A stretch of DNA of 35,716 nt. Source: Planctomycetia bacterium (GTDB lineage Bacteria; Planctomycetota; Planctomycetia; Pirellulales; UBA1268). Below the pieces are notes generated by a model that was not told where the DNA came from, searched no databases, and saw only the letters and a list, made by a program, of their open reading frames with translations. The stretch is from positions 1 to 35,716 of the forward strand of contig RFRL01000010.1 of assembly GCA_009924545.1 (NCBI GenBank), read 5' to 3'. Every line of letters starts with the position of its first letter. Position 1 is the stretch's first letter. This document shows, piece after piece, positions 3,379 to 31,362 of the stretch. The translations under genes and the position numbers were made by a program.

Positions 3379-6836
<3,458 letters not shown>

Positions 6837-6918
6837 GGCATCCTGCCGTGACGGACCGCGGGCGAAGCAGCAATCTTGCCGCGTGCCCGGCGGCGTGGGC
6901 AAGGCCATTTCGCCGCTG

Positions 6919-7959
6919 TCAGGTCCCCCCGTCGAGCCCCGCGAGGCTGCACAGCACGTGGCTGGTCACGGCCGGCGGACAGCTCCACACGAGGAAGAAA
7001 CAGGCTTCGCGGACCAGCCGCTCGGCGGGGTGCCCGCTGACGAATCCCGCCCCCTTGCAGGCCGCAAGCGCCGCCTGGGAGGTCCGCAGGGCGAGGTTCG
7101 TGGCGGTGGCACGGAGGCAGTCACGCGGCCCCGGTTCGATCCCGGCCAGCGCCGCCCGGTGGAGATCGGCCTCCACCCCCCCGGCCTCGGCGCGAAACGC
7201 CGCGACGATCGCCACCAGATCGGGCCGTCGCTCGGCCTCCGTGGCCAGCAGGTCGAGCGCCCGCTGCGCCGCCCCCAGCGCCAGGGCAATCGTCGCCAGG
7301 CCGCCGCTGCGCACCCCACCCGCCGGCGGTGCGATGACGGCCAACGGCCGCACCGCGGTGAGCCCTACCGCGGCCGTCCGGCTGCCCGACAGCGCGAGCA
7401 ACTCCAGCGGCGGGGCGACGACCACGCCCGGGCTGCCGGTGGCGACGAGGAAGAAACGCTGCGCGCCCGCCTCGTCGATCGCCCCCGTGACCAACGTGTC
7501 GCTGCGGTCGGCGCCCGTCACCCAGGGGCACTGGCCATCGATGCGCCAGCCATCCGGACCGAGCGCCGCGCGGACGGCCGCGCTGCCGAGATGCCGCCGG
7601 CTGGTCGTGAGCTGCGAGATGCCCACGGTGGTGAAGCGCGTGCCCCCGGCGAGGGCCGGGAGCTCCGCCTGCCGTACCGCGGGCGCGGCGGCGGCGATCA
7701 GCCGGCAGGCGGCGGCCCACTGGGAAAGGACCAGCGCCGTGGTCAGGCACCGGCGCGCCACCGCCGTGAGCAGGCCGACGAGCGTGGCCTCGTCAACGCC
7801 GCGGCCGCCGGCATCGACCGGGATCCAGGCGCCGAGCACACCGCGCTCGGCGAGGAGGGCCAGGGTCCCGCTGTCCCACGGTCCCGCGACGGCCGTCCGG
7901 TCGGCGCGATGGGCGAGGTCGGCTTCCAGGGTGGGGAGGTCGGCCGAGGTGCGAAACAT
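6919..7959 (-). CDS. Acyl-CoA dehydrogenase-like protein
   Basis: 346 aa; ERGVLGAWIPVDAGGRGVDEATLVGLLTAVAR, FTTVGISQLTTSRRHLG and C-terminal CKGAGFVSGHPAERLVREACFF follow the acyl-CoA dehydrogenase layout. Confidence 0.7.
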   Translation of the reverse strand: MFRTSADLPTLEADLAHRADRTAVAGPWDSGTLALLAERGVLGAWIPVDAGGRGVDEATLVGLLTAVARRCLTTALVLSQWAAACRLIAAAAPAVRQAELPALAGGTRFTTVGISQLTTSRRHLGSAAVRAALGPDGWRIDGQCPWVTGADRSDTLVTGAIDEAGAQRFFLVATGSPGVVVAPPLELLALSGSRTAAVGLTAVRPLAVIAPPAGGVRSGGLATIALALGAAQRALDLLATEAERRPDLVAIVAAFRAEAGGVEADLHRAALAGIEPGPRDCLRATATNLALRTSQAALAACKGAGFVSGHPAERLVREACFFLVWSCPPAVTSHVLCSLAGLDGGT

Positions 7960-12167: not shown

Positions 12168-14614
12168 CAGTGGTTGAAGACGAATTCGGGGGAGTTGAGC
12201 AGGGCCCAGAAGACGTCCTCCAGGGCCTGGCGGGGATCGGGTGCCTGCAGCACCATGGCGATCGTTTCCTGGCGCTCGCGCTCGTTGGGGAGGCGCCCGT
12301 AGCAGCGCACGAAGAGCTCGTCGAGGACCGCGGTCGGCGTCATCCCGGCGGTGAGGAGGCGCGGCACGAGTTTGCCCTGGGCGATGCGATCGTTGGCGGC
12401 GTCGCCGTTGAGCAGGTGCAGCGCCTGGGAGAGGCTCGGATCCATGCGGACGGCGCAGGTGCACACGTCCTCGCGCGTGGCACGGCCGAAGGTGGTGAGG
12501 AAGTAGTTGGTGGTCCGGCCGTCGGCCACCTCCACCGCCCGTCCCCCCTGTGGCAGTCCGGGGAACTTGGTCCGCGTCTCGGTGACCTGGGTGAGCACGT
12601 CGAGGAGCACCTCGGCCCGGATCCGCCGCACCGCCGCGTGCGAGAAGTTGGTGTTGTCGAGGGCGTTGGAGGGGTTGGTTTCGCAGGAGCGCTGGTAGGT
12701 CTCGGAGAGGAGGATTTCACGGACGAGGCTGCGGAAGTCCCAGCCGGAAGCGGCGAACCGGCGTCCCAACTCGTCGAGGAGCGGGCCATTGGAGGGAGGA
12801 TTGCTCACCCGGGCATCGTCCGGCTCGTGGACGATGCCGCGGCCGTGGAAGTGGGTCCAGGCGAGGTTGGCGACGTGCTTGGCGAAGTAGGGGTTCTCGG
12901 CCGTGGTGATCCACGCCGCCAGTGCCTCGCGGCGGTCGCGGTCGGCCACCCGCGGCACTTCGCCGCCGAGGAACTTCGGGGCCACCGTCTGGCCGGTGAC
13001 CGGATGCTTCACGTCGCCCGAGCCGGCGTCGTAGATGATCGTCTCGCGCGGGTCGGCGGCACGCTTCCGCCCGATCTGCGGGAAGAAGGCGGCGAAGCCG
13101 TAGTAGTCGTCCATCGTCCAGCGGTCGAAGGGATGGTTGTGGCACTGGGCGCACTGGATACGCATCCCGAGGAAGGCCTGGGCGACGTTCTCGGCGAGCT
13201 TGAGCGTGTTCCGCTCGAGCTGGAAGTAGTTGGTGGGCGGGTTCTCGAAGGTGCCGCCGGAGGCGGTGAGGAGATCGCGGACCATCTGATCAACCGGCTG
13301 GTTGGCGGCGATGCGCTGCTCGAGCCAGTGGTGGTAGAGGATCGCCCCCTTGGGGCTGACGACGTTGTTCTGCGAGCGGATCTGGAGCATGTCGGCCCAC
13401 TTCATCACCCACAGGTCGACGAACTCTTCCCGGGTGAGGAGCCGATCGACGAGGCGCGCCCGCTTGTCGGCCGAGGTGTCGGCGAGGAACGCCTCCCGCT
13501 CCGCCGCCGTGGGGAGCAGGCCGACCACGTCGAGCATGACGCGGCGGAGGAATGTGGCGTCGTCGCACACCGCTGACGGAGTGATCCGCAGGGCCGCCAG
13601 CTTGGCATCGACGAGATCGTCGATCCAGTTGCCGCCCGGCGTGCCACCCGCGGACGCCGTCGTCGGCCCGAGGCCGGTCGGGATCACCACCACCGGCACC
13701 CCCACGGTGATCGTGTCGTAGCGAGCCATGATGAAGGCCTCGCCCCGGTCGCCGCTGGTGATCCGGCCGTCCACGCTCACCTTCGCCGACTGATCGTTGT
13801 TGGAGCCGTACCAGACCAGGTCGGTGACGTCGCGGTCGGTGCCGTCGGCGAACCGGGCGACGGCGACCAGTCGCTGGGTGGCCGCCGCGCCCTCGAGGAG
13901 GGCCTGTGGCGGGTGGAGGTCGAGGCCCACGAGGCGCGGCACCGCGGTGGGGTCGTCGGGGGCGCCCGCGGCGATCCAGTCGACGAGCGTCCTCGCCAGG
14001 AGGCTGTCGGCGGTGAACCGTTTGCCACCGGTGTGGGGCGCCGTGCCCACCGCCTTCCGCACCAGCAGGCTCTCCTCCGGGTTGGCCAGGTCGATGCGCC
14101 GCCCGGGGAGCTCCCGGGTGATGCGCTGGTAGTCGCCGGCGGGGTCGAAGCCGAAGAGCGACAGCCGGAAACCGTCCTTGCCGCGGGCCGCGCCGTGGCA
14201 ACTGCCCATGTTGCAGCCACCGCGGGCGAAGACCGGCATCACGTCGAGCCGGAAGGAGAGGGGCGGGTCGGAGGTGGCCGACACCACCACCAGCGGAATC
14301 TCCACCGTCCGCCCGCCATGGCTGATGCGGACGAGCCCTTCGCCATCGGCCAGGGGCCGGAACAGGAGACCTCCGTCGAGCGCCTCGACGGCGGCCAGCT
14401 GCGGGGCGAGGAGCGTGCACGCGGCGCGGTCGGTGACGTCGCGCGTGCGGCCGTCGGCGAGCGTCTCCTGGACGATGACGCGCTGCCGGTCGCGCGCCGA
14501 GTCGAGGCGCACTCCCGGCGGGTAGGCATGCAGTGCCACCACCTCGTCGGCGGGGGCAGCGGCGCGCGCCACGGCGGCCGACAGGATCGACGCGAGGAGC
14601 AGGAGGCGCGTCAT
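12167..14614 (-). CDS. DUF1549/DUF1553 (PSCyt2/PSD1) domain protein with c-type heme motifs
   Basis: FLRRVMLDVVGLLPTAAEREAFLAD...LLTREEFVDLWVMKWADMLQIRSQN; FLGMRIQCAQCHNHPFDRWTMDDYYGFAAFF; C-terminal DELFVRCYGRLPNERE...ALLNSPEFVFNH. Start at ATG 14614. Confidence 0.9.
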   Translation of the reverse strand: MTRLLLLASILSAAVARAAAPADEVVALHAYPPGVRLDSARDRQRVIVQETLADGRTRDVTDRAACTLLAPQLAAVEALDGGLLFRPLADGEGLVRISHGGRTVEIPLVVVSATSDPPLSFRLDVMPVFARGGCNMGSCHGAARGKDGFRLSLFGFDPAGDYQRITRELPGRRIDLANPEESLLVRKAVGTAPHTGGKRFTADSLLARTLVDWIAAGAPDDPTAVPRLVGLDLHPPQALLEGAAATQRLVAVARFADGTDRDVTDLVWYGSNNDQSAKVSVDGRITSGDRGEAFIMARYDTITVGVPVVVIPTGLGPTTASAGGTPGGNWIDDLVDAKLAALRITPSAVCDDATFLRRVMLDVVGLLPTAAEREAFLADTSADKRARLVDRLLTREEFVDLWVMKWADMLQIRSQNNVVSPKGAILYHHWLEQRIAANQPVDQMVRDLLTASGGTFENPPTNYFQLERNTLKLAENVAQAFLGMRIQCAQCHNHPFDRWTMDDYYGFAAFFPQIGRKRAADPRETIIYDAGSGDVKHPVTGQTVAPKFLGGEVPRVADRDRREALAAWITTAENPYFAKHVANLAWTHFHGRGIVHEPDDARVSNPPSNGPLLDELGRRFAASGWDFRSLVREILLSETYQRSCETNPSNALDNTNFSHAAVRRIRAEVLLDVLTQVTETRTKFPGLPQGGRAVEVADGRTTNYFLTTFGRATREDVCTCAVRMDPSLSQALHLLNGDAANDRIAQGKLVPRLLTAGMTPTAVLDELFVRCYGRLPNERERQETIAMVLQAPDPRQALEDVFWALLNSPEFVFNH

Positions 14615-21858: not shown

Positions 21859-23964
21859 ATGGAACATCCCCACGATCCCGACAAGGCCACGCCGGAATCG
21901 GGAGCGACCCGCGCCGAGGACACCCCCCGGCCGGAAGTGGCGGCGCAGGTCGGCCCCGGCACACGCGCCAGCGAGGCGACGACCCCGATCGGTCGCGGCG
22001 GGGACACCACTCGGGCCGACCCGGAGCCGGTTCCGCCGCCTGTGACCGCGCCCGCCGCCGACGCGACGCAGGCCTGTGGTCCCGGTGGAGCCACGCTGCC
22101 GATCACGCCCGGCGCGGCCCCGCCGCTCCCCGTGCCCGAAGCCGACGTCACCGTGCCCGTTCCGGCCGCTCCGGTCACCGTGCCGATCCCGCGCCAGTCG
22201 AGCGCCGACACGATTCCTGTCGGGCGCGGTGCCGCGCAGCCACCCGTCGGTGGCGAGCCGGTGCTGCCGTCACCACCCCCGCCGCGCCGGCCGAACCCCA
22301 CCTATCCCTACCAGGAGCACGACGAGGTCCTTCCCGGGTACCGGCTGTTGAATCGGCTGGGCAAGGGGGGCTTCGGGGAGGTGTGGAAAGCCCGGGGCCC
22401 CGGGGGCACGGAGGTGGCGATCAAGGTGCTGGCCGACCTCGATTCCTCCACCGGCCTGAAGGAGTACCGGTCGCTGCAGCGGATCAAGCTCATCCGTCAT
22501 CCGCACATCGTGCCGCTGCACGGCGTGTGGCTGAAGAACCGGGACGGCCACGTGCTCTCCACCGACGAGGCGGACGTCTTCGAACACAACCTCACCAAAG
22601 CGCCGACCGCTTCGCTGTCGAGCACGGGGGCATCGCTGGAACTGGTCATGGCGATGGGGCTCGGCGACGGGACCCTCGATTCGCGCCTCAAGGAGGCCGG
22701 CGGCGAGGGGCTACCGACGAAGGTCGTCCTCGAGTGGATGATGCAGGCCGCCCGGGCGATCGACTACCTCAACGATCCACGGAAGCGGCCGGGTTCCGAC
22801 GCCCAGCCGATCCAGCACTGCGACATCAAGCCGCAGAACATCCTCCTCGTGGCGTCCACCGTCCAGTTGTGCGATCTGGGGCTGGCCCGGATCCAGGACT
22901 CGCACACGCGCGAGGTGTATGCCAGCAGGCCGTGGGCCGCGCCGGAGATGCTGTACGGCGACACGGCGGCGACGAGCGACCAGTACTCCCTGGCGGTCGT
23001 CTACGTCCAGCTGCGCACCGGCCGGCTGCCGTACCCCTATGGTCCGGACGGCCATCCCCTTGTGCGGCAGATCGACCACGCGAAGCGCACCGGGGAATAC
23101 GACCTCTCCGCGGTGACGCCGGCCGAGGCGAAGGTCCTGCGGATGGCCCTCCATCACGAGCCCGCCAAGCGCTACCAGAGCTGCGACGAGTTCGTGAAGT
23201 CCCTGATGCAGGCGACGCGCACCAAGAAGGAAGGCGCGCGGCAGACCTCGGCGAGTCAACCTGGCACCCGCAGGGAATCCGGGTCGACTGTCCCCACCAC
23301 CGTGGAACCGGGGGCGAGGCCGGCGGCGTTCACGCCGGCTGCGATGCGCGTGCAGTCGCCGTGGGCCCTGGCCGGCATTGGCGGCGGGTTGGCCGCGCTG
23401 GGGGCGGCGTTCGGACTGTTCCCCGGCACGCCGCCCGTCCCCGCGGTCGACGCGCCGAAGCCGGCGCCGGCCACGGTTCAGGAGGCGGGGGGTGCGGGCG
23501 CCCGCGAAGACGTGATGCAGACGGGTGTGCGGCTCGTCGAGCGCTTCACCCTCGCCGAGGGGGCCCGGAACCTCTCCGTGACCATCGAGTCGCTGAAGGC
23601 ACTGGAGCGCTGGTTCACGACCCACCCCGATCTCCAGATCCCCAACGACAAGACCGGTGAGAAGGTCACCTTCGGCGAAGCGAAGAACTCGCTCGCCTGG
23701 TACATCGGCTGCGATCCGGGGGCGGACAAGGCGGCGAAGGAGTTCGCGCGTTTCCTCGCCGAAGAGTCTGTGCGCGTGGCCTTGCCTGACGCCAAGGCCA
23801 ACGCCCTCGACACGCTCGCGGTCGTGGCCGCCCGCTCTGGCGACTGGGAGACGGCGATCCGATCGGTCGAGGACGCGATCAAGGTTTCACCCAATCCCGC
23901 CTACCGGAAGCGCCTGGAGCACTTCCGCCGTCACCAGACGTGGGACGATCCGTGGTCGGAGTGA
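21859..23964 (+). CDS. Ser/Thr protein kinase (Hanks type) with Pro/Thr-rich N-terminus, probable TM segment and C-terminal repeat-like domain
   Basis: GYRLLNRLGKGGFGEVWKARGPGGTEVAIKVL; QHCDIKPQNILL; CDLGLARI; PWAAPEML; SDQYSLAVVYVQLRTGRLPY; hydrophobic PWALAGIGGGLAALGAAFGLFPG. Trimmed from the 20560 ORF to ATG 21859. Confidence 0.88.
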   Translation: MEHPHDPDKATPESGATRAEDTPRPEVAAQVGPGTRASEATTPIGRGGDTTRADPEPVPPPVTAPAADATQACGPGGATLPITPGAAPPLPVPEADVTVPVPAAPVTVPIPRQSSADTIPVGRGAAQPPVGGEPVLPSPPPPRRPNPTYPYQEHDEVLPGYRLLNRLGKGGFGEVWKARGPGGTEVAIKVLADLDSSTGLKEYRSLQRIKLIRHPHIVPLHGVWLKNRDGHVLSTDEADVFEHNLTKAPTASLSSTGASLELVMAMGLGDGTLDSRLKEAGGEGLPTKVVLEWMMQAARAIDYLNDPRKRPGSDAQPIQHCDIKPQNILLVASTVQLCDLGLARIQDSHTREVYASRPWAAPEMLYGDTAATSDQYSLAVVYVQLRTGRLPYPYGPDGHPLVRQIDHAKRTGEYDLSAVTPAEAKVLRMALHHEPAKRYQSCDEFVKSLMQATRTKKEGARQTSASQPGTRRESGSTVPTTVEPGARPAAFTPAAMRVQSPWALAGIGGGLAALGAAFGLFPGTPPVPAVDAPKPAPATVQEAGGAGAREDVMQTGVRLVERFTLAEGARNLSVTIESLKALERWFTTHPDLQIPNDKTGEKVTFGEAKNSLAWYIGCDPGADKAAKEFARFLAEESVRVALPDAKANALDTLAVVAARSGDWETAIRSVEDAIKVSPNPAYRKRLEHFRRHQTWDDPWSE

Positions 23965-25479
23965 GGACTGGTCACCCGGTCGGGGCGCGCCGCGTCCACC
24001 GCCACGCTGCTGACCACCTTGCTGCTGACCACCCCGCTGGGGGCCCATCCCCGGCCGACCACCGCGCGGTTGTCCACCGCGCTGCTGTCCGCCTTGCTGC
24101 TGGCCGCCACGGGGGCGCGAGGCGGCAGGATCGTACGCCGGGTTCGGATCGGTGGGAAGGAAGGCTCCCGTGCGCTGCTGCCACTGGTGAAGGGCGGCGG
24201 TCAGCGCCGCCGCGTCGCGGGGCCGTTCCGCCGCGAGGTCGCGGCTCTCCGAAGGATCGGCGGCGAGGTCGTAGAGCTCGCGGCGTCCCCCGTCCTCGAA
24301 GAACTCGAGGAGCTTCAGGTTGCCGTCGCGGATGGCGCTGGCCGGTGGTGCGCCACCGATGTAGCAGGGGAAGTGCCAGAATAACGGGCGCGGCGGGAGC
24401 GTGCCGCCGGTCAGCAGGGGCACCAGGCTCTGGCCGTCGAGTGTGTGGCCCGCTGGGGCGGCGGCCCCGGCCAGGGCGAGCACGGTCGGATAGATGTCGA
24501 TGCTCGAAACTGGATCGTCGCAGCGCCGGCCACTGCGGATCCCCGGTCCGGCGATCACCAGGGGCACGCGGATGCCGCCCTCGTAGAGTTGCCCCTTGGC
24601 GCCGCGGAGCGGCGCCACGTACTCGCGGGTGCCGCCGTTGTCGGAGGTGAAGATCACCACCGTCCGGTCGGCGAGTCCAAGCCGCTCGATCGCGTCGAGG
24701 ACGCGGCCGATGGCGGCGTCGACATCCTCCACGGTGGCGGCGAGGGCCGGGTCGGCCCCCGTTTCGCCGGCCGGTGGCCGGCGGTCGCGCCATCGGGCCA
24801 GGGTTTCGGGCCGGGGGGCGAGTGGGGCATGCACCGCGTGATCGGCGAAGTAGACGAAGAACGGCCGGCTGCGGTTCTGCTCCATGAAGCCGATCGCCTC
24901 GTCGGCGAGGCGATCGGAAAGGAACCGGCCGGTGTCGTCGAGATAGGCGTCTTTCGCGAAGCCGATCGACTCCGGGAAGGTCACATGGCTGAAGCCCTGC
25001 CCTTCGGGCGTGGTGGGGCCACGGCGACCCCTCCCCAGATTCCACATTCCGAGGAAGGCACTGGCGTAGCCGCGGCCGGCGAGGGCTTCGGGCAGGGTCA
25101 CCACCCCGGTCGGCATGTCGGCGAGGCTATCGGCCGCCATCAGCTTGTGCCAGGGGGAACCACGCGGTTGGCGCGGATCGACGACCGTGTACACGCCGTG
25201 CCGCGGCGTCCACTGCCCCGACAGCAGGCAGGCGCGCGTGGGCGCACAGTTGGGGGCGCTGGCGTAGGCCTGGGTGAACACGACGCCGCGGGCGGCGAGC
25301 CGGTCGAGCTGCGGCGAGGCGACGAAGCGGTTGCCCATGAAGCCCACGTCCCGCCACCCCATGTCGTCCATGAGGAACAGCACCACGTTCGGCGGGCGCG
25401 TGTCGACGGCGCCGACAGCGCTCGTCGCCAGGAGGCACGCCACGAGGGCGGCGACCGGGATGTTCGGCCACCTGGTCAT
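23887..25479 (-). CDS. Type I sulfatase with Gly/Gln/Arg-rich repetitive C-terminal tail
   Basis: Signal peptide; PPNVVLFLMDDMGWRDVGFMGN; FGly motif CAPTR in NCAPTRACLLSGQWTPRHGVY; VVIFTSDNGGTREY; tail RGGQQQGGQQRGGQPRGGRPGMGPQRGGQQQGGQQRGGGRG. Confidence 0.92.
   Translation of the reverse strand: MTRWPNIPVAALVACLLATSAVGAVDTRPPNVVLFLMDDMGWRDVGFMGNRFVASPQLDRLAARGVVFTQAYASAPNCAPTRACLLSGQWTPRHGVYTVVDPRQPRGSPWHKLMAADSLADMPTGVVTLPEALAGRGYASAFLGMWNLGRGRRGPTTPEGQGFSHVTFPESIGFAKDAYLDDTGRFLSDRLADEAIGFMEQNRSRPFFVYFADHAVHAPLAPRPETLARWRDRRPPAGETGADPALAATVEDVDAAIGRVLDAIERLGLADRTVVIFTSDNGGTREYVAPLRGAKGQLYEGGIRVPLVIAGPGIRSGRRCDDPVSSIDIYPTVLALAGAAAPAGHTLDGQSLVPLLTGGTLPPRPLFWHFPCYIGGAPPASAIRDGNLKLLEFFEDGGRRELYDLAADPSESRDLAAERPRDAAALTAALHQWQQRTGAFLPTDPNPAYDPAASRPRGGQQQGGQQRGGQPRGGRPGMGPQRGGQQQGGQQRGGGRGAPRPGDQSSLRPRIVPRLVTAEVLQALPVGGIG
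23990..24115. repeat. Low-complexity imperfect tandem repeat encoding GGQQQGGQQRGG units
   Basis: The plus strand repeats TGCTGACCACCTTGCTGCTGACCACC and TGCTGTCCGCCTTGCTGCTGGCCGCC; the encoded protein shows RGGQQQGGQQRGG or its near copy twice. Confidence 0.8.
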
Positions 25480-27227
25480 CGTTGGCTCCCGCGCTGTGCC
25501 ACCACGTCGAGGGTGCCGGAGGCGAGGGTGATCCCGTCGATCGCCCGCAGCAATTCGTCCCGGCTGCCGCCGCCGGGGAGGCGGGGGATTTCCCGCAGGG
25601 CATACACGGTGAGGTGGTAGGTCTTGGGGCCGGGGCCCTGGGAGCAGGGGGGATCGTAGGCCGCCTGCTTGCGGTCGTTGTGGCCGAGGCTGCCGATGTC
25701 CCGCGCGTTCCGCGGCAGTTCGTGGACCGTGGCGGGGATCCCGTGCACCACCCAGTACGACTTCACCCGGTCGGGCGCCTCATGCCACAGCGTCACGGCA
25801 TAGCACCGCGTGCCGGCGGGGCCGGCCGTCCAGCGCACCGGGGGTGAGACCTTGTCGCCGTCGCAGGTGAACTCGACCGGGAGGCGGCCGTCGGCTCCCA
25901 CCGCGGGGCTGGTCACGGTCAGGCTGGCGCCGGCGGCCTCGGGCGGGGCCGGTCGTCCCGTGCCGGTGGCGGCCGAGTCGCGCCCCTGCGGACGCCCCTG
26001 GTCGCGCGGGGGCGGTGGCCGGTCGGGCGGGGCGCTGCCCCGGCCCGCACCAGCGCCCTGGGCGGCCCCGTTGCGGGGTGGCGGCGGACCATCCCCCGGG
26101 CCGCGGCCGGGACCACGTCCGCGCTGGTCACGCGGCGGGCGCTGCCCATCACGCGGCGGTCCCTGCCCCGGGCCGCGCCCCCGCGGCCTGGCCTCCTCGG
26201 TGGTGGTGCGGCCCTGCGGGTCGGTGGAGCGGAAGCTCACGCCACCATCGGGAGCGAGCGTGTACTCGACAGTGCCCTTCCTGCCGTTGACCTCGTAGGT
26301 GAGTCGTCGGGCGGTGGGGGAGGTGAACTCGAAGCCCACGATCTTCGCCCCTGGCAGCGGCGGCAGGGCCTCGCGCACCCCCTGGGCCCGGGGCTGGGGA
26401 TCGACCTGACCGTCGCGCTCGGTGACCTCCCCGTGGAAGGCGCCGATGAGGTACGGATACTTCATGGCCGCGTGGTAGTGGTAGCCGATGACCGGGTCGT
26501 CGTGGCCATGGCACGCGTCGAGCGGACGCACCGGGGAACCGTCCGGTTCCGTGAGGCCGTACACCGGATACCCGTCGAGTGCCCAGGCGACCGGCTTCCC
26601 CTTGCCGACCACCTGCTCCAGGTGGAGCGGGGCGACGTGGTAGTGGTAGTCGTCGGCCCGCCCACAGTGACCGCCGTACTCGTCGAGCTCGCCGATGGCC
26701 AAGGCATCGTCGCCGCGGTTGTTGAGCGGATTGAAGATCGGGATCCCGTTGACGGCCACGGCGATCGCCCCGCGGAGGAACCTGTCGCGCGTCGAAGCCG
26801 GGCTCGCCGCCGGAACCGGATGGAGCGGGATCCGCCAGGCATTGTCGCCGGTGTAGGGCTGCGGCAGCGGCACCTGCTGCTGCCAGGAGCGGATCCCGAC
26901 CATCAGCGGATGGTCGGGGATGCCGTTGCCCTCCACGAAGAAGAAGCGCTCGTCACTGCGCGTGGTGATGGCGCGGCGGTCGACGAACGGCGCGAACGCG
27001 GCGGCGATGGCGGAGTCGGCCGCCTCCCGCCGCGCCGATACCAACCGGATGGTCGGCCCCGCGTCGGTCGTGGTCGCAGCAGCGGCCCGGGCAGCACGCC
27101 GGGCGGCGAAGGGATCGGGCCGGTCGGTTTCCCCGTGGCCCCCGGGATGGGCAGGCGCGCGGCCCGTGGCGAGGGTCATCGCCCCGAGGACGATGGCACC
27201 GATCGCGAACCGAATTTTTTGCATCAT
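25476..27227 (-). CDS. YHYH-domain protein fused to a C-terminal PEBP (YbhB/YbcL-like) domain via a Pro/Arg/Gly-rich linker
   Basis: Two YHYH motifs (DDYHYHVAPLHLEQ, IGYHYHAAMKYPYLIGAFHG); linker RPRGRGPGQGPPRDGQRPPRDQRGRGPGRGPGDGPPPPRNG; C-terminal LPVEFTCDGDKVSPPVRWTAGPAGTRCYAVTLWHEAP...SYWVVHGIPATVHELPRN typical of PEBP/YbhB. Confidence 0.88.
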   Translation of the reverse strand: MMQKIRFAIGAIVLGAMTLATGRAPAHPGGHGETDRPDPFAARRAARAAAATTTDAGPTIRLVSARREAADSAIAAAFAPFVDRRAITTRSDERFFFVEGNGIPDHPLMVGIRSWQQQVPLPQPYTGDNAWRIPLHPVPAASPASTRDRFLRGAIAVAVNGIPIFNPLNNRGDDALAIGELDEYGGHCGRADDYHYHVAPLHLEQVVGKGKPVAWALDGYPVYGLTEPDGSPVRPLDACHGHDDPVIGYHYHAAMKYPYLIGAFHGEVTERDGQVDPQPRAQGVREALPPLPGAKIVGFEFTSPTARRLTYEVNGRKGTVEYTLAPDGGVSFRSTDPQGRTTTEEARPRGRGPGQGPPRDGQRPPRDQRGRGPGRGPGDGPPPPRNGAAQGAGAGRGSAPPDRPPPPRDQGRPQGRDSAATGTGRPAPPEAAGASLTVTSPAVGADGRLPVEFTCDGDKVSPPVRWTAGPAGTRCYAVTLWHEAPDRVKSYWVVHGIPATVHELPRNARDIGSLGHNDRKQAAYDPPCSQGPGPKTYHLTVYALREIPRLPGGGSRDELLRAIDGITLASGTLDVVAQRGSQR

Positions 27228-28750
27228 GGCGCTCCCTTTCCCTTCCCGTTGCCCTCGGCACCGCCGCCATTCGGCCCCCGCCGGCCGCCTTGTTTCCGTG
27301 GCGGCGGCGGAGCCGCGGGATCGAAGTCGCGATTCGGTGTGGGCATGCGGGCATCGACCGCGGCGAGGTAGCGGTCGAGGCGCTGTCGCAGGTCGCGCGC
27401 GACGTCAGGGCGGGCCGGGGCGAGGTCCTGCCGTTCTCCCGGGTCGCGCGCGAGGTCGAAGAGTTTCATCGAGCCGTCCTCGAAGAACTCCATCAGCTTC
27501 ATGTCGCCGACGCGGATCGCCGCATGGGGCGTGTGCCCACTTTGGTAGTGGGGGAAGTGGAATACCAGGCCGTCGAGGCGGCGCGACACGGTGCCGGTGC
27601 CGCCCTGGGCGAGGAGCGTGGCGATGCTGCCCCCTTCCAGCCCGGCCGGGAGCTGCTCGGCCGGCACCCCGGCCCACTGGCAGAACGTGGGGAACAGATC
27701 CCACCCCACCACCGGCACGCGACAGAACGAATCGGGTTTCACCCCGGGACCGCGGACGATGAAGGGCACGCGGATGCCCCCTTCCCACACCGAACCCTTG
27801 CCGCCGGTGAGGCCGACACGGCGGCCACCGCCGCCACCGCTCCCGTTGTCGGAGGTGTAGATCACGAACGTGGTGCCGGCCAGCCCGAGACGGTCGATGG
27901 CATCGAGCACGCGCCCGACGCCGGTATCGAGATCCTCGGTGATCGCCGCGCGTTCCACCTGCCGGGTCGCGCCGGCGGCGGCATACTTCCGCTTCGACGC
28001 CTCGAGAGCATTTTCCGGGGCGTGAAGGGCATGCCACGAGAGCTGCACGTAGAACGGCTGCCGCGCGTCGCGCGCCTTCCGCATGAACACCTCGGCACGC
28101 TCGGCCATGCCGAAGATGTCGACCGGGTTGGGGTCGGTGAACCGGTAGGCCTGCTCGTTGCCCACGTCGCCGTCGTGTTCGTCGTAGCCATTGGCATCGG
28201 GGCCGCCGCCGCCGATGTGCCACTTGCCGTAGTGCGCCGTGGCATAGCCCGCCCGGCGGAGCACGTCGCCGACGGTGACCGCGGTAGCGGGGATGTCGCG
28301 GATGTCGCGCGGCTCGATGAGACGATGGCCGGTCTCGGGGGGCGCCGCCTTCGTCCAGTGGAGGGCGGCGGGAGTCCGCCCGCACTGGATGCTGATCCGC
28401 GACGGGGAGCAGACCGGGGCCGGCGCGTAGGCGTCGGTGAAGCGCATCCCCTGGTGGGCGAAAGCCTCCAGACGCGGTGTCTGGAAGAGGGTGCTCCGCG
28501 ATCCGTCGATGCCGGGGGCCATGGCGACCGACAGGCCGTCCCAGCCCTGGTCGTCGGCGAGCATGAAGACGATGTTGGGCCGATCGGGCGGGGCGGCGAC
28601 CGCGCTCGATCCTCCCGCCGACACGCTGCCCGGTCCACCAGCCAGGAGGAGGAGCCCCGCGCCCCACAGGCGCCACTTCACGATGCCCATCGGTGCTGTG
28701 CTCCCCGGAACGGTGCGCGCCGTCGTGACGCTCGCTTTCCCGACGTTCAT
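27224..28750 (-). CDS. Type I sulfatase with Pro/Gly/Lys-rich C-terminal tail
   Basis: RPNIVFMLADDQGWDGLSVAM; FGly motif CSPSR in YAPAPVCSPSRISIQCGRTP; YTSDNGSGGGGGRRVGLTGGKGSVWEGGIRVPFIVRGPG; tail PPPPRKQGGRRGPNGGGAEGNGKGKGAP. ATG 28750 overlaps the upstream stop (28690 is an alternative start). Confidence 0.9.
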   Translation of the reverse strand: MNVGKASVTTARTVPGSTAPMGIVKWRLWGAGLLLLAGGPGSVSAGGSSAVAAPPDRPNIVFMLADDQGWDGLSVAMAPGIDGSRSTLFQTPRLEAFAHQGMRFTDAYAPAPVCSPSRISIQCGRTPAALHWTKAAPPETGHRLIEPRDIRDIPATAVTVGDVLRRAGYATAHYGKWHIGGGGPDANGYDEHDGDVGNEQAYRFTDPNPVDIFGMAERAEVFMRKARDARQPFYVQLSWHALHAPENALEASKRKYAAAGATRQVERAAITEDLDTGVGRVLDAIDRLGLAGTTFVIYTSDNGSGGGGGRRVGLTGGKGSVWEGGIRVPFIVRGPGVKPDSFCRVPVVGWDLFPTFCQWAGVPAEQLPAGLEGGSIATLLAQGGTGTVSRRLDGLVFHFPHYQSGHTPHAAIRVGDMKLMEFFEDGSMKLFDLARDPGERQDLAPARPDVARDLRQRLDRYLAAVDARMPTPNRDFDPAAPPPPRKQGGRRGPNGGGAEGNGKGKGAP

Positions 28751-29628
28751 CGGGTCGGTCCCCCTTCCGCGGCACCTGGGCGCTGCCCACCGCCACCAGG
28801 GCCGCTGCCTGGCCGGCCGCCCGGGCCGCCACCCGGCCGTCCACCAGGTCGTCCGCCACCACCTCCCGGTCCACCTCCCGGCCGCCGCGGACCCCCCTCG
28901 GGCACCACGTCGTTGAGGCCGCGGAAGTCGGTCCGCGTCCGGCCGTCGGGCGGGGCGTTCACCACTTTGCGGAACAGGACGACGTTGTCGAGCTCGAGGT
29001 CGTCGCTCCAGATGAACTTCGCGCCGCTGAAGTCGGTGTCGTAGTAGGGCTGCTTGGGGCCGATCTGCTCCTCGGTGTACTCCTTCGCCGCCGGCCAGCC
29101 GCCATCGTCGAAGCCGACAGCGAACCATTCGGCCGGGATCGGGTCGTTCTCCACCCGGGGGTTCTTCGTGTCACCGCCGACCGGACCGCGCGACACGCAC
29201 CGTGCCTTCCACGAGGCGTCGGTGACGGTGCCGTCGCCGAACTTGATCACCAGACCGCCGTCGCCGATCTGCGAGTTGGCGTATTCCATGCCGGTCCGCG
29301 GGTCGAAGTTGTCGCGGGCCATGACGGCGATCGTCATCGGGTAGGCGGGGAGGATGTCCACCGAGACGACGTTGTGGGGCAGGAAGGCGATCGAATCGAC
29401 CGCCACCTGCTCGCCGTTGATGTACAGCACGAACCAGTTGTCGGCGTAGACGTGTGCCCGGATCGTGTCGTCCATCGCCGGCTTGCGGAGGGCCGCGCGC
29501 GGGGCGGGAGGCTGGCCGTGACCGCGCGGCCACGAGCCCGGTTGGAGGGCGAAGGCGGCACCGACAAGGGCCGCGGTGACGGGCCAACGGATGCGCATCG
29601 GGGGGATCCTCCGGGGGACGGTGTTCAT
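28747..29628 (-). CDS. Secreted protein of unknown function (beta-sandwich-like) with Gly/Pro/Arg-rich C-terminal tail
   Basis: Signal-like N-terminus MRIRWPVTAALVGAAFALQPG; DNWFVLYINGEQVAVDSIAFLPHNVVSVDILPAYPMTIAVMARDNFD; C-terminal [41 protein letters not shown]. Start at ATG 29628. Confidence 0.75.
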   Translation of the reverse strand: MNTVPRRIPPMRIRWPVTAALVGAAFALQPGSWPRGHGQPPAPRAALRKPAMDDTIRAHVYADNWFVLYINGEQVAVDSIAFLPHNVVSVDILPAYPMTIAVMARDNFDPRTGMEYANSQIGDGGLVIKFGDGTVTDASWKARCVSRGPVGGDTKNPRVENDPIPAEWFAVGFDDGGWPAAKEYTEEQIGPKQPYYDTDFSGAKFIWSDDLELDNVVLFRKVVNAPPDGRTRTDFRGLNDVVPEGGPRRPGGGPGGGGGRPGGRPGGGPGGRPGSGPGGGGQRPGAAEGGPTR

Positions 29629-30650
29629 TCCCAATCGGTCGATCGATCAAGCGCGTGGTGGGAGCGGTGGTCGAAGAAGTCGGCTCCCAGGTCGGTCTCC
29701 GCCACGAGTTCGAGGGCCACCACTGCCGCCCCGCCGTTCACCGCCCGGGGCCCCTGCGGCTCCGCCGGGTGCCCGTTTTTCTCCGCGGGCAGCCCCGGCT
29801 TCTCGGTGGGAATACCGTGGAGCTCAATGCGGCGCGGCACGCCGGCGGCATCGATCCACAGCCGCACCAGCTCCGGCCCCCGGCCGCGGTTACCGCCGCG
29901 GCGTGCCTCGAGCACTTGGAGCCCGGCGTCAGCCCCGTCTCCGGCGGCACCACCGACGGAGAGGCGGTACCCACGGCGCAGGCCATCGAGCCCACTGCGG
30001 AGATCGAGGAACGGGATCTCGTCGCGCTCGCCGGGAACGCTGCGCCGGAAGCGGCGCGGGTCGTGGCTGAGGTGCACGTTGCCGCGGGGGGGCACCGACC
30101 ACCCGATGGTGCCGTCGCTGCCGTTGACGAACAGGCTGCCGTCGGCGAACCGGCGCACCAGCACGAACGCATCGCCACCGCGGACGAAGAGCCGGCCGCC
30201 GTCGATCCCCGGCTGGCGGCCGCCGCGCCCCGACGGCACGGGGTCGGGGGGACCCTCCGGACCGTGGTCGAGCACGCGGATCACGTATTCGCGATCGACC
30301 GGCGCGATCGCCGCCGCCACCGCCCGCTCGAGCGTACCAGAGGCGGCCCAGGCGGGAGCGACCGCCTGCCGGGCAAAGAGCCCCGCCATCATGAGCAGGC
30401 CGACCAGCGCCGCGGCGGTGACCCACCGGCGGTCGGGGCCAGCCACCCCCGCACGGGCATCCGGGACGACGGTGCTGTGCTCGAGACCGGTGCGGAACAG
30501 ATCGGCGAGGCGATCGTGGAGGAGCACCGCGCGAACGAACATTGCGGCGGCGGCGGGGTCCTCCGCGAGCCGGCCGTCGAGGACGACCGTCTCCGCAGCG
30601 GAGAGGTCGCCGTCGAGGTGTCGGTCGATGATGTGTCGCAGGTCGTCCAT
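29625..30650 (-). CDS. Predicted membrane-anchored anti-sigma factor with LolA/RseB-like extracytoplasmic domain
   Basis: N-terminal MDDLRHIIDRHLDGDLSAAETVVLDGRLAEDPAAAAMFVRAVLLHDRLADLF (zinc-less anti-sigma-like); TM segment RRWVTAAALVGLLMMAGLFARQAV; beta-rich C-terminal domain. Lies directly downstream of the sigma factor gene. Confidence 0.65.
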   Translation of the reverse strand: MDDLRHIIDRHLDGDLSAAETVVLDGRLAEDPAAAAMFVRAVLLHDRLADLFRTGLEHSTVVPDARAGVAGPDRRWVTAAALVGLLMMAGLFARQAVAPAWAASGTLERAVAAAIAPVDREYVIRVLDHGPEGPPDPVPSGRGGRQPGIDGGRLFVRGGDAFVLVRRFADGSLFVNGSDGTIGWSVPPRGNVHLSHDPRRFRRSVPGERDEIPFLDLRSGLDGLRRGYRLSVGGAAGDGADAGLQVLEARRGGNRGRGPELVRLWIDAAGVPRRIELHGIPTEKPGLPAEKNGHPAEPQGPRAVNGGAAVVALELVAETDLGADFFDHRSHHALDRSTDWE

Positions 30651-30710
30651 CGGCGGTCCGGTGTGTGGTGGTGGCGTGGCGTGAGGTGGGGCAACGCGGA
30701 CTGCCCGTGG

Positions 30711-31250
30711 TCAACCCGGGGCCGCTGCATTTGAGCCGGTGGCAGGCATGGTCCGGCGCTCGATGCACTCCCGCAGCCGGTCGCGCACCCGTTGCAGCGC
30801 CTTGGCCACCGTGTTGGCGGAAAGCCCCATCACCGTGGCGATCGCGGCCGGCTTGAGGTCGTCGCCGTAGCGGAGGTCGCAGAGTTGCCGGCCGCGCGGG
30901 TCGAGGCGCTGGATGCAGTCCCGGAGACGGTCGAGCCGGTGCAACTCCTCGGCGGGGACCGCCGTGAATGCGGCCTCCACCCGGTCGAGCGCCGCGCTGT
31001 CGAAGCACAATCGGTCGCGACCGCGGCGCCGCAGGTAGAGACCGACCTGGTTCCGCGCGACCCCGATCGCCCAGGGAACGAAGGGCCGCCCGGGATCGTA
31101 GCGGTCGAACGACTCGATCACCGCCACCGCCACCTCCTGGAGCACGTCGTCGCGGTCGCGGAAATCGCGGACGATGCCCGTGATGAAGGCTGATACGGCC
31201 GGCTGGGCCAGCGTCCACAGCCGGGTCGCGGTCCGCTGCCGCTCGTCCAT
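30711..31250 (-). CDS. ECF-type RNA polymerase sigma factor
   Basis: DFRDRDDVLQEVAVAVIESFDRYDPGRPFVPWAIGVARNQVGLYLRRRGRD (region 2) and LRDCIQRLDPRGRQLCDLRYGDDLKPAAIATVMGLSANTVAKALQRVRDRLRECIERR (region 4). ORF extends to an alternative ATG at 31280. Confidence 0.9.
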   Translation of the reverse strand: MDERQRTATRLWTLAQPAVSAFITGIVRDFRDRDDVLQEVAVAVIESFDRYDPGRPFVPWAIGVARNQVGLYLRRRGRDRLCFDSAALDRVEAAFTAVPAEELHRLDRLRDCIQRLDPRGRQLCDLRYGDDLKPAAIATVMGLSANTVAKALQRVRDRLRECIERRTMPATGSNAAAPG

Positions 31251-31301
31251 GGCTTCGGTCTTCTGGTGGTCTGGTTCCACGGGAGGCGATCGGATGACGC
31301 C

Positions 31302-31329
31302 CCAACCTATTCCTTATCCGGACGGTTGG
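31302..31329. promoter_or_regulatory. Inverted repeat CCAACC-N16-GGTTGG upstream of the sigma factor gene
   Basis: CCAACC at 31302-31307 and GGTTGG at 31324-31329, perfect 6-bp arms, in the intergenic region upstream of the ECF operon. Confidence 0.35.
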
Positions 31330-31333
31330 ATTC

Positions 31334-31362
31334 GTGACCGCCGGACCGCCTGTGACCGCCGG
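31334..31362. repeat. Direct repeat of GTGACCGCCGG (11 bp, 18-bp period)
   Basis: Identical copies at 31334-31344 and 31352-31362, between the phosphoglucomutase stop and the sigma-factor start. Confidence 0.5.

Follow-up and report, generated by a model that had tools for sequence, protein, structure and literature searches.

What does a planctomycete gain by placing a sigma factor directly ahead of a set of genes for exported enzymes, and what might such a switch sense? The question is raised by contig RFRL01000010.1 of a Planctomycetia bacterium (assembly GCA_009924545.1), whose whole stretch of 35,716 nucleotides we call the window. On its minus strand, reading from 31338 down to 23887, a promoter-like element is followed by genes for an extracytoplasmic function (ECF) sigma factor, a putative membrane anti-sigma factor, a secreted protein (SU), a sulfatase (sA), a YHYH-PEBP fusion protein (YP) and a sulfatase-like protein (sB). 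We confirmed the six-gene operon in this order, as a first-pass annotation of the same DNA had proposed it, with family identities from Pfam and NCBIfam profile matches, and found that the cluster is conserved far above chance expectation. It is apparently a conserved, ECF-switched operon for secreted ester hydrolases that has not previously been described. The reading that we favour, with a probability of roughly 60%, is that of a self-contained ECF switch that governs a small secretome of ester hydrolases and responds to an amphiphilic ligand. The features are as follows.

31313-31338, minus strand: candidate ECF promoter GTCACGAATCCAACCGTCCGGATAAG (GTCA-N17-ATAAG), kept in 23 of 24 orthologous loci and matched strictly nowhere else in the 4.36 Mb genome
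30711-31280, minus strand: ECF sigma factor (TIGR02989, 152 bits; Sigma70_r2 and Sigma70_r4_2), starting at GTG 31280 or, likelier, ATG 31250
29625-30650, minus strand: putative membrane anti-sigma factor, with DUF4880-like helices, one predicted transmembrane helix (about 75-97) and a modelled LolA/RseB-like domain (about 100-341)
28747-29628, minus strand: SU, a secreted protein of a conserved family with a glycine-, arginine- and proline-rich tail; probable start 29598
27224-28750, minus strand: sA, an exported sulfatase (PF00884) with the formylglycine (FGly) motif CSPSR and an intact GKWHIG; start 28750 or 28690
25476-27227, minus strand: YP, an exported YHYH-PEBP fusion (PF14240 and PF01161) with a proline-, arginine- and glycine-rich linker between the domains
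23887-25479, minus strand: sB, an exported sulfatase-like protein (PF00884, PF01663) with a glutamine-, arginine- and glycine-rich tail; CAPTR present, GMWNLG replacing GKWHLG

To place the operon among its relatives, we compared the YHYH loci of 20 relatives and 80 named genome loci (L and G numbers denote loci and genomes of this set). Orthologues of all six genes recur side by side across Planctomycetota, with the complete set present in, for example, L064, L074, L076, L085 and L114, as well as in L100 and L104, two verrucomicrobial loci with a sigma factor only 31-33% identical. The four secreted components are likewise found in Verrucomicrobiota, and their gene order is shuffled across many families. 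Ninety-eight non-redundant YP loci contained sA in 52 cases, SU in 44, the anti-sigma factor in 29, the sigma factor in 28, sB in 26 and a metallophosphoesterase in 18; the sigma factor was accompanied by the anti-sigma factor in all 28, and no locus had the sigma factor only. In a phylum sample of 392 genomes, YP occurred in 13 and a strong SU match in nine, all nine lying within the YP-bearing 13 (hypergeometric P 1.3e-15, phylogeny ignored), so that the co-occurrence across Planctomycetota on which the first-pass annotation had staked its proposal was borne out. Recurrence and co-occurrence together led us to reject chance clustering of the six genes. The switch, the promoter, YP and SU are also present in a cultured isolate, Neorhodopirellula pilleata Pla100 (L093). 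Literature searches turned up no described system of this composition, in line with the earlier statement that none was known, and no paper combining these families; YHYH was mentioned in just three relevant papers. Among same-genus loci that share flanks, L043 has SU, sA, YP and sB while L039 and L044 have only YP, pointing to recent gain or loss of the partners.

The switch itself is the best-defined part of the locus. The sigma factor belongs to the Rhodopirellula/Verrucomicrobium-type ECF family TIGR02989 (152.4 bits against a cut-off of 124.55) and consists of regions 2 and 4 only (PF04542, PF08281). Located 33 nucleotides upstream of its gene is a GTCA-N17-[ATC]TAAG element, resembling a -35/-10 pair with a fixed 17-nucleotide spacing; the wider form is GTCA-N17-[ATC][TG]AAG and the consensus is near GTCAT[G/A]ATT ... 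CGG[A/T]TAAGTAA. As GTCA-N15-GG-[ACT][TG]AA, the motif stands ahead of the sigma gene in 23 of the 24 loci with a sigma factor at least 51% identical to that of the window (the lone exception, L076, has GCTGATAAG), against a mean of 0.017 loci in a shuffled-sequence control, and it is absent upstream in all five loci with a sigma factor at most 37% identical, so the motif tracks the sigma clade. Across the home genome (4.36 Mb, 93% complete) the strict pattern has a single occurrence, at this operon; a reversed control pattern also occurs once, and the weight therefore lies on the position and conservation of the motif rather than on its count. Co-occurrence and a dedicated predicted promoter support the idea that the ECF/anti-sigma pair controls its own operon of exported proteins, and the regulatory logic, as far as it can be read from sequence, is well supported.

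The same consensus points to further candidate members of the regulon elsewhere. In G009 a second site (L035 7562-7587) precedes a gene at 5198-7465 (minus strand) for a secreted YHYH protein of 755 residues that also bears PATR and dockerin-like repeats and is likely a second regulon member; in G046 a perfect consensus promoter (L175:7100-7125, minus strand) precedes HlyD/MacB-type exporter genes at 5651-7015 and 3449-4828, possibly a regulon member or the target of a paralogous sigma factor. Two loci with distant sigma factors (28-30% identical) have a divergent arrangement and, in place of the GTCA motif, TTGTCCAC/GTGGACAA-like repeats (L050 9740-10180 and L070 5330-5700).

What the switch might respond to is suggested by the predicted anti-sigma factor, which adjoins the sigma gene and combines a DUF4880-type N terminus with a transmembrane helix. 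DUF4880 matches the N terminus in eight of 26 homologues, the window protein itself not being among them. Its AlphaFold model (confidence score pLDDT 86.8) shows N-terminal helices, a long helix containing the transmembrane segment, and a beta-rich domain. With this model as the query, Foldseek returned LolA (E 8e-7), RseB (7.6e-5) and LprG (4.6e-4), and all 24 Protein Data Bank (PDB) matches at E<=0.001 were LolA, RseB or LprG structures. RseB and its homologue MucB regulate anti-sigma factors and respond to lipids, MucB being released from the anti-sigma factor MucA by lipid signals (PMC7400510), which makes an amphiphilic ligand a natural guess here; the envelope or ligand sensing proposed in the first-pass annotation thereby gains support from the modelled fold. 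The arrangement resembles the sigmaE-RseA-RseB system of E. coli and AlgU-MucA-MucB of P. aeruginosa in its ECF sigma factor, single-transmembrane anti-sigma factor and LolA-fold periplasmic module, lipid-responsive there and modelled here. By contrast with those systems, the LolA-like module appears to lie within the anti-sigma polypeptide, the N terminus is DUF4880/FecR-like, and the regulon amounts essentially to a single operon for secreted enzymes. A DUF4880-like N terminus, and an ECF sigma factor and membrane anti-sigma factor adjoining the genes that they control, are shared with FecI-FecR and the ECF pairs of Bacteroidota glycan loci; unlike those, the operon has no TonB-dependent transducer or SusCD pair, and a predicted LolA-like sensor stands where FecR has its FecR domain, which was not detected here. 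Several Verrucomicrobiota (L099, L118, L122, L123, L127) lack the ECF pair; beside their YP cluster lies a heavy-metal-type histidine kinase and/or response regulator, usually divergent and of CopRS-like two-component type, which suggests that the secreted proteins form the unit and that the sensor can be exchanged.

Among the exported enzymes, sA retains all the sulfatase residues in the alignment (CxPxR, DD, GKWH, H, DN and K), as expected of an S1 sulfatase, and its nearest solved structure is the kappa-carrageenan S1_16 sulfatase 9fo1; FGE-type proteins are encoded in the home genome. The first-pass annotation had counted sB as a second FGly sulfatase, but while sB keeps CxPxR (CAPTR), it reads GMW[N/T]LG in 12 of 12 aligned orthologues, the sulfate-pocket Lys and His of GKWHxG being lost in every one, and we rejected the view that the operon encodes two ordinary sulfatases. 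The GMW[N/T]LG sequences form one clade (25 tips, support 0.998), whereas sister sulfatases, other ones from this genome among them, have GKWH or GKWG wherever the motif is readable. Of the solved structures, those nearest to sA and sB are the SulfAtlas S1_16 sulfatase 9fo1 and the N-acetylgalactosamine-6-sulfatases 7stt and 6ust; all three have CxPxR, as do both proteins, and also the GKWHL Lys and His that sB lacks. Phosphonate monoester hydrolases, which belong to this superfamily too, are likewise not known to carry the pair.

A calcineurin-like metallophosphoesterase takes the place of sB in other loci: of the well-flanked loci that carry SU or sA, 19 had only sB, 11 only the phosphoesterase and none both (Fisher p 0.001, relatedness uncorrected). 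Each also occurs fused to the YHYH module, as YHYH::EF-hand::sB in L032 and YHYH-PEBP::metallophosphoesterase in L180, both verified by translation. Most simply, sB and the metallophosphoesterase would share one job, in which case sB may be no sulfatase and may act on phosphoesters rather than sulfate esters. PF01663, a phosphodiesterase family, matched 12 of 12 sB and one of ten sA sequences, and lends this only a little weight because sulfatases and phosphodiesterases are homologous. Apparent fused open reading frames in some GC-rich loci, such as L054, proved to be out-of-frame artefacts and were discarded.

Both domains of YP score well above their Pfam cut-offs (PF14240, 48.2 bits against 25; PF01161, 66.5 against 24). 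The YHYH domain has invariant His residues at 106, 187, 195, 197, 242, 250 and 252 and invariant Asp residues at 182, 192, 193 and 218 (full-length numbering), the YHYH motif included, a set conserved as in other PF14240 proteins and consistent with the published prediction that YHYH proteins, phage tail-associated forms among them, are Zn hydrolases (PMC7824862); a metal-dependent enzymatic role for YP would fit. In those other YHYH proteins the domain stands apart from the partners seen here, where it is fused to PEBP and, in other loci, to sB or the metallophosphoesterase. A Foldseek search with the YHYH model (pLDDT 92) gave no PDB match at E<=0.001 and one uninformative match (4.8e-7) to a nameless 1480-residue viral model. 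The PEBP part resembles bacterial PEBP proteins (YbhB/YbcL, 3n08) in exceeding the PF01161 cut-off but differs from them in having lost the DPDxP anion-pocket motif, with WHEAPD in its place; DPDxP and the pocket His are replaced by an invariant WH..P...K.YW. Many YP-bearing genomes also encode, in separate genes, another YHYH subfamily, which scores about 75 bits against PF14240 and is about 32% identical to YP (L010-L023, L029, L030). SU matched no Pfam or NCBIfam family. We tentatively considered it as a carbohydrate-binding domain on the strength of a single-sequence match to the N-terminal region of rhamnosidase B (E 0.0045), which weakened to E 0.2 with a profile.

The gene starts bear on how tightly the operon is coupled. 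The first-pass annotation had seen in four successive ATGA overlaps a stoichiometric unit held together by translational coupling. The four strings are present, at 29625-29628, 28747-28750, 27224-27227 and 25476-25479, and the starts of YP and sB at theirs appear sound, the sA/YP and YP/sB overlaps recurring in the relatives L036 and L038. At least one, however, is probably no real start: within SU, ATG 29598 is preceded by a strong Shine-Dalgarno sequence CGGAGGAtccccccgATG (Shine-Dalgarno-like GGAGGA) and gives a cleaner, normal signal peptide, which argues against the overlap at 29625-29628, and ATG 28690 is a serious and plausible alternative to 28750 for sA. Since other same-strand pairs in the window also overlap by 4 nucleotides (5433-5436, 14611-14614), the overlaps indicate a compact operon and lend no support to a stoichiometric unit; translational coupling was overstated. 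At 23887-23964 the 3' end of sB overlaps, in antisense, the last part of a protein-kinase-like gene that runs towards it on the plus strand (about 22200-23964), and the final sB residues may be poorly constrained. The tails of SU, sA and sB and the YP linker are of low complexity (rich in glycine, arginine, proline and glutamine) in most orthologues, possibly serving surface retention.

In the sequence of events that we propose, the anti-sigma factor would keep the sigma factor at the membrane in the resting state. A ligand, most likely amphiphilic (a lipid, glycolipid or lipoprotein-like molecule), would bind the LolA/RseB-like periplasmic domain and inactivate the anti-sigma factor, and the freed sigma factor would use the single GTCA-N17-ATAAG promoter to transcribe the operon that encodes it. 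SU, the FGly sulfatase sA, YP and the second ester hydrolase sB would then be exported and may work jointly on a shared target outside the cell or in its envelope, from which they would strip sulfate and probably a second ester. Several observations weigh against this reading. The LolA domain is a model, and its matches at E<=0.001 have target-normalised TM-scores of 0.41-0.67; the two-component system replacing the ECF pair in Verrucomicrobiota could mean another signal. G002 (97% complete) retains the promoter beside sA, yet no orthologous sigma factor was found in it, so an operon of this kind can stand without its switch. No partner was detected for 18 of 65 well-flanked YP genes, and many of the loci are phylogenetically non-independent.

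Might the operon instead serve the use of sulfated polysaccharides, two exo-sulfatases and a carbohydrate-binding SU desulfating carrageenan-like algal glycans that the ECF pair senses? The carrageenan and N-acetylgalactosamine-6-sulfatases nearest to sA and sB, the weak likeness of SU to a rhamnosidase region and the commonness of clustered sulfatases among planctomycetes (PMC4807772) speak for it. Against this, the six genes and the annotated recurrent neighbour clusters (some flanking open reading frames are unannotated) contain no glycoside hydrolase, lyase or SusCD-like transporter, so the locus does not qualify as a polysaccharide utilisation locus over that range. The missing Lys/His pair of sB, the metallophosphoesterase standing in for it, the modelled resemblance of the sensor to lipid binders and the weakening of the SU similarity with a profile also count against it, leaving this explanation doubtful.

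A response to envelope stress, on the pattern of sigmaE/RseA/RseB, would have lipid or lipoprotein exposed by outer-envelope damage and the cell's own surface mended or remodelled by the secreted proteins. This reading draws on the same modelled RseB/LolA-like fold, on the export of every effector, on basic low-complexity tails suggestive of surface retention, on the PEBP-like domain and on the consensus promoter ahead of the G046 exporter. We consider it unlikely: sigmaE regulons are typically broad, whereas that of the home genome is apparently one operon, and a spread as patchy as 13 of 392 genomes would be odd for a core stress response. Scavenging, with the enzymes freeing sulfate or phosphate from organic esters and the switch answering starvation, could accommodate the alternation of sB with the metallophosphoesterase, but it is very improbable, with no transporter or Pho/Cys-type gene among the operon genes or annotated recurrent neighbours and with a dedicated ECF sigma factor and lipid-type sensor being no known starvation input.

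Returning to the amphiphile-responsive switch, we tentatively raise the possibility of an undescribed system of Planctomycetota and Verrucomicrobiota, with at least one Armatimonadota metagenome-assembled genome, in which a LolA-like single-polypeptide anti-sigma factor, or in Verrucomicrobiota a two-component pair, deploys YHYH-PEBP-centred enzymes, the fourth being either a metallophosphoesterase or sB, a sulfatase turned phosphoesterase. The operon gives regulon-level context to three poorly understood families (YHYH proteins, SU and LolA-type anti-sigma factors) and supplies a predicted ECF promoter for one planctomycete sigma clade. The conserved sulfatase-like GMW[N/T]LG clade may be mis-annotated as sulfatase, and the exchange of sB for a metallophosphoesterase yields a concrete, testable prediction on the chemistry of sB which, if true, would make it a sulfatase converted to phosphate chemistry.

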